A stretch of DNA of 64,000 nucleotides from an uncultured Euryhalocaulis sp. (GCA_913055605.1 CAJXKJ010000004.1:1-64000); one strand, 5' to 3'; numbered from the stretch's first letter, positions 1 to 24,140 are shown. Notes: generated by a model not told the origin, from the letters alone. Made by a program: numbers and translations.

Positions 1-1335
1 GTCCAGCTGGCCGGTCTTGGTGCGGCTGCCGGTGACCTGGGCGTTCACGTCCGCGCCATTGTCCAGCAGCAGCGTCATCGTCTCGATCACGCCGGCCTGG
101 ACGTCGCCGTCCGGGAGGCCGCCGCGGATCCGGCCGGTGCCGCTCATTCCGCCTGCGATCATCAGCGGGGTCATGCGGAACACGTTCGGCAGGTCCACGT
201 CCGCGCCGTTCGACAGCAGGCGCTCGATGGCCACATTGTCATAGCTCATCGCGGCGACCAGCAGCGCGCTGGTGCCGCCGCGCATGTCATAGTCGGTGAA
301 GCGGCCGCGCGCCGGGCCGTTGGGCCGCATCCGCGTCAGCTGGTGGTTCACGTCCACGCCCGCCTCGATCAGCCGGTCCATGACGTCGAGCGCAGAGTAT
401 TTCGCCTCCTGCCCCAGCTCCGCCGGCTCCGGATAGCCGCCGAAGCCGCCGAGGCCGAGCCGGATCGGCGGATTGAAGGAATGCATGTCGACCGCGAGAT
501 AAAGCGGCGTCCGGCCGTACTGGTCCCAGGCGTGGATGTCCGCGCCATTGTCCATCAGGTACCAGGCCGTATCGAAATTCTTGTTGTCCAGCGCGTTCAG
601 GAGCGGCGTGACGCCGTCCGGGTTCGGCTGGTTCACGTCCGCGCCGGCGTCGACGATCGACACCGCGCAGGTGTGGCAGCCCGAGCGCGTGGCGTAGAGC
701 AGCGCGGTCAGCCCGCCGGTGTCGCGGAACTGGGCCCGCGGCTCCGACGTCATCTGGCGCGGCCAGTCGTCATGCTTGGCGCGGACCGCGGTGTCGGCGC
801 CGTGTTCCAGCAGCAGGTCGACGATGCCGGCATGGCCGTTGGCGGCCGCCCACATCAGCGCGGTCTGGCCGCGGAACGTCTCCACCGCGTTCACGTCGGC
901 GCCGTGCTCCACCAGCATCTCGGCGATCGGCAGCGAGCCGATATTGGAGGCCAGCATCAGCGCGGTCTGATTGTCGCCATTGGGCGAGTCCGGATCGGCG
1001 CCGGCGTCCAGCAGCATGCGGACCAGCTCGGCGTCACCGATCTTCACCGCCTCGCTCAGCGGCGTGGAGCCGTAGTCGTTGGTGACGTCGGCCTTGGCGC
1101 CGGCGTCCAGCAGCGCGCGCACCAGATCATGGTCGACCTGATAGGCCGCATAATGCAGCGCGGTGGAGCCGTCGGCGGCCGCCTCGTTCACGTCGGCGTC
1201 CGCGATGGCCTCCATCGCGCCGTCGCGGTCGCCCGCGCGCAGCAGGTCGGTCAGCTCGCCCGCAGACGCGGCTGCGGGCAGCATGGCCGCAGACAGGGCC
1301 AGCATCGACGCGGCGGCGATTGTCCAGTTTCTCAT
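1..1335 (-). CDS. Exported ankyrin-repeat protein (C-terminus beyond window)
   Basis: The minus-strand frame opens at ATG 1335 and is still open at base 1, so the C-terminus is missing. Residues 1-25 look like a Sec signal peptide (MRNWTIAAASMLALSAAML, then an Ala-rich cleavage zone). The rest is a run of ankyrin repeats with the typical G-STALHYAA, TPLSEAV, LLLDAGADVN and TPLYLAVDM motifs. An unusual repeat holds a CHTC pair (SGCHTCAVSIV). Ankyrin repeats bind other proteins, and a periplasmic one is less usual than a cytosolic one. It is the fourth gene of the cassette with the MBL, DUF1552 and DUF1592 genes, 26 bases behind the MBL gene. From memory, ankyrin proteins of this type often sit beside DUF1592/DUF1552 genes in proteobacteria. 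The ankyrin call is firm; the binding partner is unknown. Confidence 0.85.
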   Translation of the reverse strand, partial: MRNWTIAAASMLALSAAMLPAAASAGELTDLLRAGDRDGAMEAIADADVNEAAADGSTALHYAAYQVDHDLVRALLDAGAKADVTNDYGSTPLSEAVKIGDAELVRMLLDAGADPDSPNGDNQTALMLASNIGSLPIAEMLVEHGADVNAVETFRGQTALMWAAANGHAGIVDLLLEHGADTAVRAKHDDWPRQMTSEPRAQFRDTGGLTALLYATRSGCHTCAVSIVDAGADVNQPNPDGVTPLLNALDNKNFDTAWYLMDNGADIHAWDQYGRTPLYLAVDMHSFNPPIRLGLGGFGGYPEPAELGQEAKYSALDVMDRLIEAGVDVNHQLTRMRPNGPARGRFTDYDMRGGTSALLVAAMSYDNVAIERLLSNGADVDLPNVFRMTPLMIAGGMSGTGRIRGGLPDGDVQAGVIETMTLLLDNGADVNAQVTGSRTKTGQLD

Positions 1336-1361
1336 CCTGCCCTCCCCGGCGCAGCCAGCCG

Positions 1362-2297
1362 TCAAACGGTGGCGCCGCCAAAATTGGTGTAGTGGGCCCA
1401 CAGGCCCTTCATGACGTCGTAGAGGAATTTCTGCGGGTCCTCGAACTCGCGATCCACCTCGTCCATTACGCCCATCTCGTACATGTCCTCGGCGCTGTGA
1501 CCCGTGACGCACAGTTCGGTCGTGCGGTCGTACAGATGGGTCATCATGTCCCGCTCGGCCTGCAGGTCGGCGCGCGACATCACCGGGCCATAGGCCGGGA
1601 CGATCTTCGTGTCGTCATTGACCATGGCCAGCAGGTCGTCCATCGCGTCGACCCGGCCGCCGAGCCAGCCGCCGGCGTACCAGTCCAGCGACGGATCGCG
1701 CTGCGGCGAGGCGACGTCGCCCACCGCCAGCACGTTGGAGTCGCGGAAGAACACATAGATGTCCCCGCGCGTGTGCGCCTCCAGCAGATAGCCGTACTCG
1801 ACGGTTTCGTCGCCCGCGGTCATCTCGCCGGTCTGGCGGAAGGTCTCGGTCGGCCGCGCGGCCTCGGGCGGCGCGGGGACCCAGCGGTCCTCGGCCGGGA
1901 CGTAGTAATTGGCCGACAGCCACTGGCGGGTGATCTCGTGGGCGTGGATCGTCGCGCCCTCCTCCCCGAACAGCGCGTTCCCGCCGGTCTGGTCGGCGTG
2001 ATAGTGCGTGTTGAACAGCGTGCGCACCCGGGCCGGCAGGCTGGCCTGGACGGAGCGGGCCATCGGCTCCGCCCCGCTATCCACCAGCAGCACGCCGTCG
2101 CCGGACGACAGCGCGACCAGATTGCCCGGCGCGCCGGTGACCAGCATAACGCGGTCGGTCAGCGCCTGGGTGGCCAGCGGTTCGGCGCTTGCGCCGCGCG
2201 CGCAGGCGGACAGGCCGCCAATCAGCGGCAGAGAGGCCGCGCCCGCAAGCCCGCCGAGACCGGCTTTCAGGACGCTTCTGCGATCGGTGATCTTCAT
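1362..2297 (-). CDS. Tat-exported lipoprotein, metallo-beta-lactamase-fold hydrolase
   Basis: This 311-residue protein starts at ATG 2297 (MKITDRRSVLKAG), two bases after the DUF1552 stop. The twin-arginine signal (D-RRSVLK) and a lipobox ending at Cys32 (GLSAC) suggest a Tat-translocated lipoprotein. The MBL fold is shown by THYHAD (His98, His100, Asp102), His175 in EAHTRGD, and Asp194 in VGD. The last metal ligand, usually His in a PGHGP loop, is Tyr236 here (PAYGPV), so one metal site may be altered. This resembles the MBL branch found near quinoprotein or cytochrome systems rather than a true beta-lactamase. The substrate is unknown. Its position between the DUF1552 and ankyrin genes suggests a role in the same exported complex. 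Confidence 0.85.
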   Translation of the reverse strand: MKITDRRSVLKAGLGGLAGAASLPLIGGLSACARGASAEPLATQALTDRVMLVTGAPGNLVALSSGDGVLLVDSGAEPMARSVQASLPARVRTLFNTHYHADQTGGNALFGEEGATIHAHEITRQWLSANYYVPAEDRWVPAPPEAARPTETFRQTGEMTAGDETVEYGYLLEAHTRGDIYVFFRDSNVLAVGDVASPQRDPSLDWYAGGWLGGRVDAMDDLLAMVNDDTKIVPAYGPVMSRADLQAERDMMTHLYDRTTELCVTGHSAEDMYEMGVMDEVDREFEDPQKFLYDVMKGLWAHYTNFGGATV

Positions 2298-2299
2298 CC

Positions 2300-3649
2300 T
2301 CAGGCCTCGGCGATCAGGCCGGTGCTGTTGGCGAAGCTGTCCTGCGGGATGCCGAACTTGTCCAGCATGGTCAGGTGCATGTTCGCCAGCGGCGTGCGGT
2401 CGGGCAGCGTCACGTTCTTGCCGCCCTTGTGGGCGCCGCTGGCGCCGCCGACCCACAGCTCCGGCAGCGGATAGTTATCGTGCTGGTTGGAGTTGCTCAT
2501 GTTCGAGCCGTACAGGAACAGCGAGTGGTCCAGGATGCTGCCGTCGCCGTCCGGCGTTTCGGCCAGCTTGGTCACGAAGTCGGCGAAGCGCTGCATGTGA
2601 TAGCGCTGGATGATCGTCAGGCGGCGGATCCGCTCGCGGTCATTGGTGTGGTGGCTGACCGGGTGGAAGGAATCCGGCACGCCGACATGGTTGTAGGTGC
2701 GGTTGGTGCCCTCGGCGACCATCACATAGGAGGCGATGCGCGTCAGGTCCGCCTGATACGCCAGCGCGATCAGGTCGAACATCAGCTTGACCTGCTCGTC
2801 GAAGTCCTCGAGCACGCCGACCGGCGCGTCCGGAACGTCGACGCCCGACAGGTCGCGCGACCCGGCCATCTCCACCCGGCGCTCGATCTCCCGCACCGTG
2901 TCCAGATAGTCGGACAGGGTGGAGCGGTCGGCGGGGCCGAGATCCGCGCGCAGCGTGTTGGTGCGGTCCGCGATCATGTCCAGCAGGCTGGCGGTCTTGC
3001 GGGTCAGCGCCTCGCGCTCGGCAGCGGTGTCGCCCTCGCCCATCAGCTTCACGAACAGCTTGCGCGGATTGAACTCCATCGGCAGCGGCGCATTCGGCGC
3101 GGCGTAGGACAGGGTCGAGGCGTAATAGCAGCCCGCCCCGCCGCAGGCCGCGACCTGGATCGTGGTCTCGGAGCACACTTCCAGCGACGGCAGCGCGGTT
3201 TCCTGACCCAGCTTCTGGGCGATGATCTGGTCCAGCGTGGTCGACATGCTGGCGGCCTTGGCGCCGGTGTCCGGACGCACGCAGGACAGCCAGGTCGCCG
3301 GATTGATCGTGTGGACCGAGCCGGCGGAGGCCGCGTTCTCCAGATTGTCGAACGTGGTGACGTAATTCTTGTGCGCCTCGAGCGGCTCAAGAATGTGGCC
3401 CAGCTTGTAGTTGTCGCCGGAGCCGGTGGACGACCAGGCGTCGACCTCTTTCCCATAGGGCGTGTTGTTCATGATCGCGCCGTGCGGGATGTAGAAGAAG
3501 CCCGCGCGGGTCTTCGGCGCCGCAGCGGTCTGCGCCAGCGCGGTCGAGGCCGGCACCATCGCTTCCAGGAACGGAAGGCCCATGGCCACCGCGCCGCCTT
3601 GCAGCAGCGTGCGCCGGGACAGGTGCTTCTTCCTCAGATAATTCGCCAT
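2300..3649 (-). CDS. DUF1552 protein, Tat-exported
   Basis: The 449-residue product begins MANYLRKKHLSRRTLLQGG, a clear twin-arginine signal, followed by a hydrophobic stretch and an AxA-type cleavage region (TALAQ). The body fits the DUF1552 family: an early FFYIPHGAIMN segment, a central DTVREIERRVEMAG segment, and a late SNMSNSNQHDNYPLPELWVGG segment. DUF1552 proteins have been noted mainly in Planctomycetes and some Proteobacteria, usually paired with DUF1592 proteins, and have no established activity. A good ribosome binding site (GGAGGCGGAGA in the minus sense) precedes ATG 3649. The gene lies 55 bases after the DUF1592 gene and 2 bases before the MBL gene, so co-transcription is likely. 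Confidence 0.88.
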   Translation of the reverse strand: MANYLRKKHLSRRTLLQGGAVAMGLPFLEAMVPASTALAQTAAAPKTRAGFFYIPHGAIMNNTPYGKEVDAWSSTGSGDNYKLGHILEPLEAHKNYVTTFDNLENAASAGSVHTINPATWLSCVRPDTGAKAASMSTTLDQIIAQKLGQETALPSLEVCSETTIQVAACGGAGCYYASTLSYAAPNAPLPMEFNPRKLFVKLMGEGDTAAEREALTRKTASLLDMIADRTNTLRADLGPADRSTLSDYLDTVREIERRVEMAGSRDLSGVDVPDAPVGVLEDFDEQVKLMFDLIALAYQADLTRIASYVMVAEGTNRTYNHVGVPDSFHPVSHHTNDRERIRRLTIIQRYHMQRFADFVTKLAETPDGDGSILDHSLFLYGSNMSNSNQHDNYPLPELWVGGASGAHKGGKNVTLPDRTPLANMHLTMLDKFGIPQDSFANSTGLIAEA

Positions 3650-3676
3650 AATCGTCTCCGCCTCCCTAAATGTTGC

Positions 3677-3690
3677 GGGGCGTTCGCCCC
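3677..3690 (-). other. Intercistronic hairpin
   Basis: Perfect inverted repeat GGGGCG-TT-CGCCCC in the 55-base gap between the DUF1592 gene and the DUF1552 gene. It has no T-tract, so it is more likely a processing or stability element, or weak attenuator, than a terminator. Confidence 0.4.
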
Positions 3691-3704
3691 ATCGATCGCG
3701 TCCC

Positions 3705-6206
3705 TTACGGAGTTTGGGGCGCGTCGCTATCCACGGACGCTTCCTGCACCGGCTCTTCGGAGCCCTGGTGGCGGAAGGCGTCGCTATTCACGATGCCGAT
3801 GACGATCGACTCGAACGTGTAGCCGTCCTCTTCGGACGCGCGCACGATCTGCCGGACCTCCGGCATGTCGAAATATTCGATCTCGCGGTTCAGCGCGTAC
3901 ATCATCGCCCGCTTGGTCACCGTCATGGCGAACTGGTCGGGCCGGCGCATCAGATATTCGCGCAGGTCCACCGGGCCGTGCAGCTCCATGCCGTTCGTCA
4001 TGACCGTCGTCGGGTCGATCGGCAGGTCGAACTCGGTGTCGATTTCCCGCCAGCGGCCGGTGACGTCGAAATTCTCCAGCGCCAGACCCGGCGGGTCGAT
4101 CAGGCCGTGACAGCCATTACAGCTCGGGTCGGCCCGGTGCTGCTCCAGCCGTTCGCGGACGGTCGAGGGCGGATCGCCCTCATGCACCGACAAATCGGTT
4201 TCCACGTTCGGCGGCGGCGGGGTCGGCGGCGTGCCGACGATCCGGTCCAGAACCCAGGCGCCGCGAAGCACCGGCGAGGTCCGGTCGCCGTAGGAGGTGC
4301 GCAGCAGAACCGCGCCCTTGCCCAGCAGGCCCCAGCGGTTTTCGTCCTTCAGCGTGACGCGCCGGAATTGCGGGCCGAACACGTCCTCGATGTCGTACTG
4401 GCGGGCCAGCGGCTCGTTCACGAAGGTGTAGTCGGCGTCCAACAGCCGGTGGACGCTCTTGTCCTCCAGCAGGACGCTGGACACGAACAAGCGGATCTCG
4501 GTTTCGAAATTAGACCGCATGGCGTCGGTGAAGCGCGGGTCCAGCGGCTCCACCTGGTCCAGTTCGTCCAGGTTCAGCCAGGCCAGCGCGAAGTTCTCGA
4601 CCAGCGACTGGGCGCGCGGGTCGTCCAGCATCCGCTCGACCTCGGCCTTCATCACCTCGGGGTCTTTCAGCGACCCGTCGGCGGCCCGCTCGATCAGCTC
4701 CTGGTCCGGGCCCTGGCTCCACAGGAAGAAGGACAGGCGAGAGGCCAGCTCCAGCCCGTCCAGCTCCCGCGACTCGTTTTCCCCCGGCGCGGCCTGGATG
4801 GCGCGGTACAGGAAGTCCGGGCTCGACAGGACCGCGGTGACCAGTTCGCGGATGCCGGAGTCGAACCCGCCCTCTTCGGCGCGGCCGACTTCATAGAACG
4901 GCATCAGCCATTCCAGATCGGCGTCGGTGACCGGCCGGCGGAACGCCCGCGTGGCCAGATTGCGCGCGATCTCTTCGGCGCAGGGACGCTCCTCCGCTTC
5001 GCTTTCGGGCTGGCAGACGAAAATCTTGGCGCGGCTTTCGCTGAGGGACAGGCCCTCGGGCGAGAACGGGCCCTGAATCTCGACGCCGTCCTGGATGCGG
5101 GGCATGCCGGAAATCTGGCCGCCGCCGGTGGCGTCGTTGCTCATTGCCCAGGATCGCTCGATGAAGGTCAGGGTCACTTCGTGCGACCCGGCCTCGACCT
5201 GCGCCGGAATGCCGGTGACCTTCTCGATGATCGCCGCGCGGCCTTCCGGCCCGTCGCGGTCGGCCAGCGCCAGGTCCTCTTCCCCGCCGATGTCCAGACG
5301 CGCCGCCTCGACCCCGTCGACCAGCAGCAGCAGCGTGGACCGGGTCTCCATGCCCCGCGGGTACAGGCCGTGATCGACGTCCAGGATGCTGAACCGGTAT
5401 TCGCCGTCCGCCGGGAAGACATGGGTGAAGCTCACGCCCCCGCGCGTGCCCAGCGGGAAGCCGTCGCGGTGGTTGATCTGGTTGCCGGCCGGGGCGCGCT
5501 GGCTGCCGCCGTCGGACGGGATGAAGGTGCTGGCCATTTTCGGCACCGGCTCGCCGACGGCCAGGCGCGCGGCCAGACGCGCCGCGGACAGATGCTGTTC
5601 CAGGAAGGACGGCGAGACGCCCAGCGCCCCGGCGATATTGTCGAAGCCCTCGACCTCGATCTCGGTCGGCAGGACCTGCTCGGGATCGACCTCGACGCCG
5701 ATCAGCTCCTTCACGGAGGTCGCGAATTCGGTGCGGTTCAGGCGCTGGATCGGAACATGGCCGACATGGCCGTCGGCGGCTTCGTCCAGATGCGCCTCAA
5801 GGAAATCGACCATTGCGTCGACATCGGCCTGGTCCGGCTGGGGCTCGCCGGCCGGCGGCATCAGCCGTCCGCGCAGGCGCGAGGCCGCGGTCTCCCAGAC
5901 CTCCGCGTCCTCCCCGACCTCATTCACGTCCAGAATGTCGAAGGCGACGCTGCCGGCCCAGTCGGTGAAATTGTGGCATTCCACGCAATAGGTATCGATC
6001 ATGTCGCGATAGGGCTCGGCGTCGCCGGCCGCCATTGCGGACTCTTGGGCGGACTCCTGAGCGTCCTGCGCCATGGCGCCCTGCGCCAGCAGCAGCCCGG
6101 CGATCGATGCGCCGGCGGCGAGGCGAATCCTCGCGCCGCGATTCGCGGCGGAGTCGCGCGCCGCAATCAGCGGCAATTGTTCGCGTAAGGCCCGATCCTT
6201 GAACAT
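3705..6206 (-). CDS. DUF1587/DUF1592/DUF1588/DUF1585 exported protein with two CxxCH motifs
   Basis: Start chosen at ATG 6206 (MFKDRALREQ), behind a GGGGAAACG ribosome binding site; a longer reading to 6275 lacks such support. The 833-residue product has a long n-region, a hydrophobic segment near residues 28-46 and an AMAQ cleavage site. A CVECH motif at Cys74-His78 and a second motif, CNGCH, in the C-terminal third are possible c-type heme sites. Domains in order: PSCyt/CxxCH; DUF1587 (RLNRTEF); a beta-rich insert (FPADGEYRF); DUF1595 (FRRPVTDADL); DUF1592 (LASRLSFFLW) with DUF1588 (LRTSYGDRTSPV-RG); and DUF1585 at the end. This is the classic Planctomycete-type architecture. The activity is unknown; an electron-transfer or oxidoreductase role is inferred. 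It is the first gene of the exported cassette. Confidence 0.88.
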   Translation of the reverse strand: MFKDRALREQLPLIAARDSAANRGARIRLAAGASIAGLLLAQGAMAQDAQESAQESAMAAGDAEPYRDMIDTYCVECHNFTDWAGSVAFDILDVNEVGEDAEVWETAASRLRGRLMPPAGEPQPDQADVDAMVDFLEAHLDEAADGHVGHVPIQRLNRTEFATSVKELIGVEVDPEQVLPTEIEVEGFDNIAGALGVSPSFLEQHLSAARLAARLAVGEPVPKMASTFIPSDGGSQRAPAGNQINHRDGFPLGTRGGVSFTHVFPADGEYRFSILDVDHGLYPRGMETRSTLLLLVDGVEAARLDIGGEEDLALADRDGPEGRAAIIEKVTGIPAQVEAGSHEVTLTFIERSWAMSNDATGGGQISGMPRIQDGVEIQGPFSPEGLSLSESRAKIFVCQPESEAEERPCAEEIARNLATRAFRRPVTDADLEWLMPFYEVGRAEEGGFDSGIRELVTAVLSSPDFLYRAIQAAPGENESRELDGLELASRLSFFLWSQGPDQELIERAADGSLKDPEVMKAEVERMLDDPRAQSLVENFALAWLNLDELDQVEPLDPRFTDAMRSNFETEIRLFVSSVLLEDKSVHRLLDADYTFVNEPLARQYDIEDVFGPQFRRVTLKDENRWGLLGKGAVLLRTSYGDRTSPVLRGAWVLDRIVGTPPTPPPPNVETDLSVHEGDPPSTVRERLEQHRADPSCNGCHGLIDPPGLALENFDVTGRWREIDTEFDLPIDPTTVMTNGMELHGPVDLREYLMRRPDQFAMTVTKRAMMYALNREIEYFDMPEVRQIVRASEEDGYTFESIVIGIVNSDAFRHQGSEEPVQEASVDSDAPQTP

Positions 6207-6501: not shown

Positions 6502-7704
6502 TTACGGACGAAAAGCGGCCGCGCGTGCGGCGTTGGCGTTCAGCACGCGCGCGTCATGACTTCGGCCGGCGGTCCCCCATTGGGGCGGACGGGACCATTG
6601 GGGCTGGCGCGTGCAGCGAACATATTTGCATTTCAATCCCATCACTGTGCGCTGTCTCATGTCGGGCGCAATGAACCCGTGTCCGTCGTCGAACGGCACG
6701 CACTCATCCGCCTCTTCGGGATTGTGGCATGCGCCGAGGAGGTGCCCGATCTCATGTGCGAACGCGAGCTTCTCCACCGCGCAACTGAAATGCACGACGG
6801 CGAACGCCTGCTCCGCGGCGGCGTAGATCGTGGCGAGGCCGCAGCCAGACGGGTTGTCCACGATAAGGACCACCATATCGGCGCGACGTGCATCCCGAAG
6901 AGAATGGATACTGTCCAAGGCGCCGTCATCAGGCGTGACCAGATTGGACAGTGCGTCCGCCATGTATGCGGGTTCGACGTACTGGACTGTGACCACCCCC
7001 GCCGTCTCGAGAATGATATCCACATCGGAATTTCGAAATGACAGATTTGCCGATTCAAAGGCTCTGGCAGCGAAGACGTCTGTCGCCCCGATTTCCGCTT
7101 CGGCTGCGGGGGTTACCGCCAGCAGCACGCGAATTCGGGACGGCCTGAACAGATTTTTCTGGTTGGCGCCGAACTCTTCCTGAAACTCGGTGTCGGGCTC
7201 CAACGACCCGATCGGCGGCTCCTCACCCGGCGGGTGATCAGGCGGAAACGCCTCTTCCTCAATTCTGATGAGTGCATGCGCGCCTTCGCCCAGAGGAGCC
7301 AGGGAGTAGACCCCGTCATCGGCCCAGATCGTGCCGTAGAGGTCCTCTCCGTCCAGGGCGATGCTCGCCTGTCCCTGAAATTGGGAGCCGATCGCGGCCG
7401 CCGCCGTGGCCCCGTCCCAGGTCATGCGCTCTCCCGGCAGGTCTTTTCGTTCGGTGACGCCCAGTGTCATGGCCTGGCCGTTGGACAGAGAAATTTCTAT
7501 GTCGTCCGGCAGCAGCAGTAGACCGGCCTCGGCCATGACCACGCGGATGTCCCCGCTAGTCGGGAGGCTTTCCAGCCGCTCAAGTTCCGCGCGTTGCTCG
7601 GGCGTCAAATCCTGACGCTCCAGATCGTCGAGCAAGCCTTGGGAACTGGCCGCGGACGCGCAGACGATCGTGAGGCCCGCGGCGACGAATAGCCTTAAGC
7701 TCAT
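6502..7704 (-). CDS. Secreted zinc metalloprotease, metzincin (M12/reprolysin-like)
   Basis: Start is ATG 7704 (MSLRLFVAAG), with GGGGAGAG just upstream and a signal peptide over residues 1-22 (cleavage near ASSQ). Residues 23-185 form an acidic N-terminal part without a recognised domain. From about residue 188 (SRIRVLLAVTPAA) the sequence fits a metzincin catalytic domain. The zinc motif is HEIGHLLGACH (His317, Glu318, His321, His327), and the tail runs through a Met-turn-like TVMGL and an ARVLNANAARAAAF end typical of bacterial peptidases of this group. Paired cysteines around the site suggest disulfides and an extracytoplasmic location. The substrate is unknown. It is divergent from the lipoprotein gene at 7796 with a 91-base gap. 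Confidence 0.85.
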   Translation of the reverse strand: MSLRLFVAAGLTIVCASAASSQGLLDDLERQDLTPEQRAELERLESLPTSGDIRVVMAEAGLLLLPDDIEISLSNGQAMTLGVTERKDLPGERMTWDGATAAAAIGSQFQGQASIALDGEDLYGTIWADDGVYSLAPLGEGAHALIRIEEEAFPPDHPPGEEPPIGSLEPDTEFQEEFGANQKNLFRPSRIRVLLAVTPAAEAEIGATDVFAARAFESANLSFRNSDVDIILETAGVVTVQYVEPAYMADALSNLVTPDDGALDSIHSLRDARRADMVVLIVDNPSGCGLATIYAAAEQAFAVVHFSCAVEKLAFAHEIGHLLGACHNPEEADECVPFDDGHGFIAPDMRQRTVMGLKCKYVRCTRQPQWSRPPQWGTAGRSHDARVLNANAARAAAFRP

Positions 7705-7795
7705 GACACAACTCTCCCCGCCGAGAAGTGTATAACCGTGCATTGCAACCTAAGCATATTGCTTGGTAAAGTTGAATGGGCTTGGGGACGCGCTT

Positions 7796-22292: not shown

Positions 22293-24140
<1,848 letters not shown>

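Follow-up and report, generated by a model that had tools for sequence, protein, structure and literature searches.

Proteins of the PSCyt3 type and their fixed neighbours have been described, without an assigned function, as planctomycete-specific cytochrome c families (He et al. 2017, PMC5615132). In the literature searched, we found no activity for DUF1592 or DUF1552 proteins, no paper covering both families, and no description of ankyrin or metallo-beta-lactamase (MBL) partners of this PSCyt3/HXXSHH pair. In other bacteria, ankyrin proteins with genes next to those of catalases aid catalase activity or heme loading (PMC10294975). The periplasmic AnkB is one of them; the pairs AnkB-KatB, Cj1386-KatA and AnkB-CatB are cited in the same paper. 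Here we describe a four-gene cassette at positions 1-6206 of a 64,000-nucleotide stretch of DNA (the window) from an uncultured Euryhalocaulis sp. It encodes a DUF1592, a DUF1552, an MBL-fold and an ankyrin-repeat protein. This four-gene form is a variant of the known, uncharacterised PSCyt3 pair. New here are the invariant heme residues, the DUF1552 fold, the eroded second metal site of the MBL, and the distant fusions and cytochrome neighbours. With a probability of roughly 0.5, the DUF1592 and DUF1552 proteins form a di-heme oxidoreductase pair in the periplasm, with the ankyrin protein as partner and the MBL-fold protein as accessory.

Results

The cassette comprises four minus-strand genes, for the DUF1592 protein (6206-3705; 833 aa), the DUF1552 or HXXSHH protein (3649-2300; 449 aa), the MBL-fold protein (2297-1362; 311 aa) and the ankyrin-repeat protein (1335-1). 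The last open reading frame is incomplete because base 1 of the window is base 1 of the contig; 445 aa are present and the 3' end is cut. The intergenic gaps along the unit measure 55, 2 and 26 bp, and these small distances suggest that the four genes are transcribed as one operon. The promoter search gave no consensus match for the cassette, a result of little weight at high GC content. The export signals were judged by eye from motifs and not with a trained predictor. By this measure the DUF1592 and ankyrin proteins carry Sec-type signals, and the DUF1552 (LSRRTLLQG) and MBL-fold (TDRRSVLK) proteins carry twin-arginine (Tat) type signals. The MBL-fold protein has in addition an LSAC lipobox, which is restricted to the window copy among the MBLs of its own genome and is also present in a sister cassette, G445_L032. 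Gene calls, Pfam matches and motifs confirm what the first-pass annotation had read here, four tightly spaced genes on the minus strand, each with a Sec or Tat signal. Its combination of Tat signal and lipobox on the MBL applies to the window copy, but is not a general trait of the MBLs of this genome. Directly upstream of the cassette, an exported-looking metallopeptidase with reprolysin (M12) matches is encoded (6502-7743, minus strand).

The DUF1592 protein combines a cytochrome c-like N-terminus (CVECH, Met116) with PSD3, a jelly-roll region (residues ~223-382), PSD5, PSD4, PSCyt3 (CNGCH) and PSD2. PSD3, PSD5, PSD4, PSCyt3 and PSD2 occur in this order and each score over the Pfam cut-off; the N-terminal PSCyt1 match is barely over it (22.1 versus 22). 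Both CxxCH motifs noticed earlier are real. Residues C74, C77, H78, M116, H690, C696, C699 and H700 are invariant in 87/87 homologues, as is the pair Cys398/Cys409. These motifs would fit two c-type hemes per chain. Heme 1 is probably ligated by His78 and Met116, the latter part of an MPP motif, and heme 2 is possibly ligated by His700 and His690. The cysteine pair would fit a disulfide formed outside the cytoplasm. An exported heme-linked redox protein, as initially proposed, is well supported by the sequence, with both CxxCH motifs kept throughout (87/87). The structure model of the protein has a predicted local distance difference test score (pLDDT) of 69. Its jelly-roll resembles CBM6/35/36, with a best Z of 7.8 that lies within the chance range. 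With the whole model, Foldseek gave no match at E <0.001, and only the jelly-roll region gave consistent, weak matches.

Two hemes per chain, as judged by motif, could also belong to a di-heme peroxidase or oxygenase that acts like bacterial cytochrome c peroxidase or RoxA, cleaving or detoxifying, with the ankyrin protein as activator. Ankyrin partners are known for catalase, a peroxide-handling heme enzyme (PMC10294975). However, the DUF1592 protein has no CCP_MauG Pfam match at E 0.001 and no sequence relative in the PDB, and heme 1 seems to have its full set of ligands (His/Met), as heme 2 may have. We regard such an enzyme as unlikely.

The DUF1552 protein matches PF07586 with 250 bits (cut-off 30), and its HxxSHH motif reads FHPVSHH. 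H329 and H333 are kept in 84/84 DUF1552 homologues. Little or no variation is seen at the Tat arginines or at several His, Asp, Arg and Glu positions, which include the HxxSHH residues. In the model (pLDDT 61), residues 42-449 align with sulfatases and nucleotide pyrophosphatases (VIA Z 13-14.6 over 220-270 residues, root mean square deviation ~4), Foldseek alone being marginal (E 0.0017). The modelled fold is of the alkaline-phosphatase/sulfatase type. If the protein were a sulfatase- or phosphatase-like hydrolase, the cassette would serve mainly hydrolytic polymer degradation, with the hemes in a side role. The fold match to sulfatases and phosphodiesterases (Z 14.6), the weakly carbohydrate-binding-like jelly-roll of the DUF1592 protein, and the sulfatase genes often found near PSCyt genes in Verrucomicrobia (PMC5615132) would agree with this. 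However, the hemes are strictly conserved (87/87) and no invariant nucleophile was seen in residues 107-135, the expected stretch, which is itself modelled at pLDDT <50. The scan of this poorly modelled stretch would neither support nor rule out hydrolytic activity, and we judge a mainly hydrolytic cassette to be very improbable.

The genome contains 11 DUF1592 genes, each with a DUF1552 partner, in cassettes spread over 8 contigs. Two of the 12 DUF1552 matches sit at the ends of contigs C86 and C9, positions that make them the two parts of a single gene split by the contig break. An MBL gene is found at 11/11 loci, and an ankyrin gene likewise (11/11) once the split C86/C9 locus is joined. 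Identity of the paralogues to the window copies is 42-53% for DUF1592 and DUF1552 and 33-42% for the MBL. Among the Ank_2 matches listed (24 of 33), 24/24 lie within 5 kb of a cassette locus, versus 0.8 expected from the 3.3% of the genome that is covered by locus surroundings. The P value for this clustering overstates independence because the listed matches fall in 11 genes; the weight lies on the exclusivity of the ankyrin matches to cassette loci. By analogy with the catalase partners, a role as partner of a heme enzyme would fit the ankyrin protein at least as well as that of a passive scaffold, and the di-heme DUF1592 protein would be its natural partner. Assembly contamination was considered as the source of the cassettes and is unlikely, given their spread over several contigs and a glutamine synthetase on the window contig with 71-77% orthologues in the family.

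For comparison, we used genomes reached via named records and the loci fetched from them, in which 94 DUF1592 genes were sampled; the scan of the named genomes used two short patterns and yielded just 8 loci. Among the DUF1592 genes sampled, 92/94 adjoin a DUF1552 gene and 82/94 have an ankyrin gene no more than 5.5 kb away. DUF1592 copies number 9-17 per genome in Proteobacteria and 29-39 in Acidobacteria. The wider conserved unit is the trio DUF1592-DUF1552-ankyrin, present in Gammaproteobacteria and Acidobacteria at 9-39 copies per genome. PSCyt3 is found in 78/119 genomes of the class to which a Vicinamibacterales bacterium of the set (G448, Acidobacteria) belongs, some with at least 30 copies.

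Genuine MBLs are confined to one clade of 28 in the DUF1592 tree (100 in the Shimodaira-Hasegawa-like approximate likelihood ratio test, SH-aLRT), a quick tree without bootstrap whose root serves for drawing only. The MBL is an accessory of this one supported clade. The window order DUF1592-DUF1552-MBL-ankyrin also occurs at G445_L032, G445_L031 and G451_L041, in two distant genomes, and these loci group with the window in a clade of three genomes (SH-aLRT 100). Between G445_L032 and the window, identity reaches 80% for DUF1552, 73% for the MBL, 70% for the part of DUF1592 that is present and 66% for the ankyrin protein. Absence of conserved gene order elsewhere had been named at the outset as an argument against a system; the order recurs in the two distant genomes, and the argument falls because the gene set is conserved elsewhere. 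The MBL and ankyrin proteins had both been taken for extra partners. This is true of the MBL, as a clade-specific extra, but the ankyrin protein is a general partner of the family. A trio DUF1592-DUF1552-ankyrin with two heme motifs is also encoded on a Novosphingobium plasmid (L110, 8761-13983, plus strand), which offers a candidate experimental host. Genes of unnamed families, one with DUF6152, recur near cassettes in several genomes (L096, 2621-3853, and L042, 2259-3494, both minus strand).

The window MBL matches Lactamase_B (PF00753) with 56 bits (cut-off 22.7). The third metal His is kept in all cassette MBLs, and HxH in all but L014 and L017. The last metal His of the two-metal site, missing in the window copy, is lost in all cassette MBLs that span this position. 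The metal-site Asp is lost in most of them, mostly to Gly; the window copy retains it. No cassette MBL has the complete two-metal site (HxHxDH / H / D / H), and since the second metal site is mostly lost, the cassette MBL is not a standard two-metal hydrolase. The subfamily is set apart, with 335-468 bits for full-length members versus no more than 232 bits for the remaining MBLs of the searched genomes. Against curated models, the window MBL reached 58 for the SoxH-related quinoprotein relay hydrolase (TIGR04559, cut-off 280) and 53 for the subclass B1 lactamase (NF033088, cut-off 200).

Three cassettes lie in an aromatic-catabolism region of genome G000 (contig C2, 39-94 kb; L106, L009, L010, L107). 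This region encodes an HpaE equivalog, CHMI, a LigB-type dioxygenase and two lignostilbene-dioxygenase-like proteins below the equivalog cut-off. It also holds a flavin adenine dinucleotide oxidase-type protein with a small cytochrome c, and a pyrroloquinoline quinone (PQQ) alcohol dehydrogenase with a cytochrome c. Single loci suggest oxidation of plant-derived matter. In the window, 16 kb from the cassette, a gene for a LigM-type vanillate/3-O-methylgallate O-demethylase was found (22296-23696, minus strand; NF047885, 815 bits versus cut-off 580). It may be a sign of lignin-derived aromatic catabolism in the organism. A linkage to TonB receptors (3 of 18 listed lie near cassettes versus 0.8 expected, P ~0.05) was not relied on.

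In two giant fusions (L060, 7683-14795, minus strand; L061, 2196-8690, plus strand), CBM26 starch-binding modules are joined to a PQQ sugar dehydrogenase (GSDH), a cytochrome c and a whole DUF1592 module. A similar giant protein of Pseudoalteromonas (L114) is annotated 'starch-binding protein'. On two Sphingobium plasmids (L111, 8677-12867; L112, 8725-12871), DUF1592 and DUF1552 lie ahead of genes for cytochrome c and cytochrome b/b561, annotated in one such operon as cytochrome c'-cytochrome b561. These distant fusions and operons indicate electron transfer. They also bear on the idea that the DUF1592 protein only relays electrons or binds, and that the catalyst is a separate PQQ- or flavin-type dehydrogenase, encoded elsewhere and tethered to the substrate by the cassette. 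The L060 and L061 fusions of a PQQ dehydrogenase with the DUF1592 module would be expected under this idea, and such dehydrogenases are many in these genomes. Their linkage to single cassettes looked convincing at L010, L031 and L041, but was rejected as a general feature, the genomes being rich in such genes and the window's own genome showing no enrichment near its cassettes. As a separate dehydrogenase would also leave the obligate DUF1552 partner unexplained, we consider it a doubtful catalyst.

None of the 36 sampled congener and family genomes contains PSCyt3 (0/36), and 7/398 genomes of the phylum have it over the cut-off, the window's own genome included. Because the genus and family are without PSCyt3 while sister copies sit in other lineages, the simplest reading is that the family was probably gained by horizontal transfer. 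The transfer probably involved several cassettes.

Discussion

A di-heme oxidoreductase pair that works in the periplasm, with the ankyrin protein as partner and the MBL-fold protein as accessory, would account for the observed gene content, export motifs, conservation, heme motifs, clade restriction of the MBL and its eroded metal site, and for folds that come from models. From these we infer heme ligation, partnership, electron route, substrate, and the roles of the ankyrin and MBL proteins. The module would be periplasmic, the MBL possibly being membrane-anchored. The DUF1592 protein would be a c-type cytochrome with two hemes and a carbohydrate-binding-like domain, and would bind the substrate and/or carry electrons from it. 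The DUF1552 protein, a putative alkaline-phosphatase-fold metalloprotein with an HxxSHH site, would be its obligate catalytic or binding partner. Further cytochromes in the periplasm may then hand the electrons on to the respiratory chain. The ankyrin protein would bind the heme protein and aid its maturation or activity, as AnkB does with catalase. The MBL probably acts on, or merely binds, a reaction intermediate via a single three-His metal site. Divergent copies may serve different substrates, for example plant- or lignin-derived aromatics or polysaccharide fragments.

Several points weigh against this reading. Model quality is moderate (pLDDT 69 for DUF1592 and 61 for DUF1552), and the region of the second heme lies at pLDDT <50 and is unreliable. 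Neither DUF1592 nor DUF1552 has a sequence relative in the PDB, and therefore no known catalytic chemistry applies. The giant fusions and plasmid operons belong to distant subfamilies that lack both the ankyrin and the MBL partner. In the window's genome, PQQ dehydrogenases show no enrichment around cassettes (1/17 versus 0.6-1.0 expected), and the tallies of neighbouring families are diverse, with none dominant; the context therefore names no substrate.

The distinct exported heme-linked system that had been proposed from the window is largely upheld, with two corrections: the ankyrin protein is a member of the general trio, and the MBL, with its eroded metal site, is restricted to one clade. 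More tentatively, and at somewhat less than even odds, the trio may represent a general type of exported redox machine that has not been described before, made of a di-heme cytochrome, an alkaline-phosphatase-fold metalloprotein and a dedicated ankyrin protein. Its 10-40 divergent copies would then form a substrate repertoire, and one clade would have recruited an MBL whose dismantled second metal site points to a mono-metal or binding role. DUF1592 and DUF1552 proteins are abundant. Their fixed partners, conserved heme and metal residues, the DUF1552 fold and the compact four-gene unit provide a small expressible test system. Should the cassette oxidise material from plants or lignin, carbon turnover would have a widespread route that has been overlooked.

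Four known systems can be compared with the cassette. Metallo-beta-lactamases of subclass B1 and the SoxH-related type share with the cassette MBLs the Lactamase_B family and, mostly, HxH and the third His, but the cassette MBLs fall far under the curated cut-offs, their last His is gone and their Asp mostly so. The AnkB-type partners resemble the cassette in having an exported ankyrin protein (signal by eye) encoded next to the gene of a heme protein, which here is a c-type di-heme DUF1592 protein and not a catalase. The GSDH-cytochrome c-PSD fusions of Pseudomonadota have the PSD3-PSD5-PSD4-PSCyt3-PSD2 module in common with the cassette, followed by a DUF1552 gene in L060 and L114. They differ by the fused dehydrogenase and CBM26, and no ankyrin or MBL gene was found at those loci. 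Closest is the PSCyt3/DUF1592 and HXXSHH/DUF1552 pair (PMC5615132), with the same PSD/PSCyt3 domain set, a heme motif, a fixed neighbour gene of unknown family and many copies. Beyond this pair, the cassette has an ankyrin partner that is conserved and an MBL partner that is confined to one clade.

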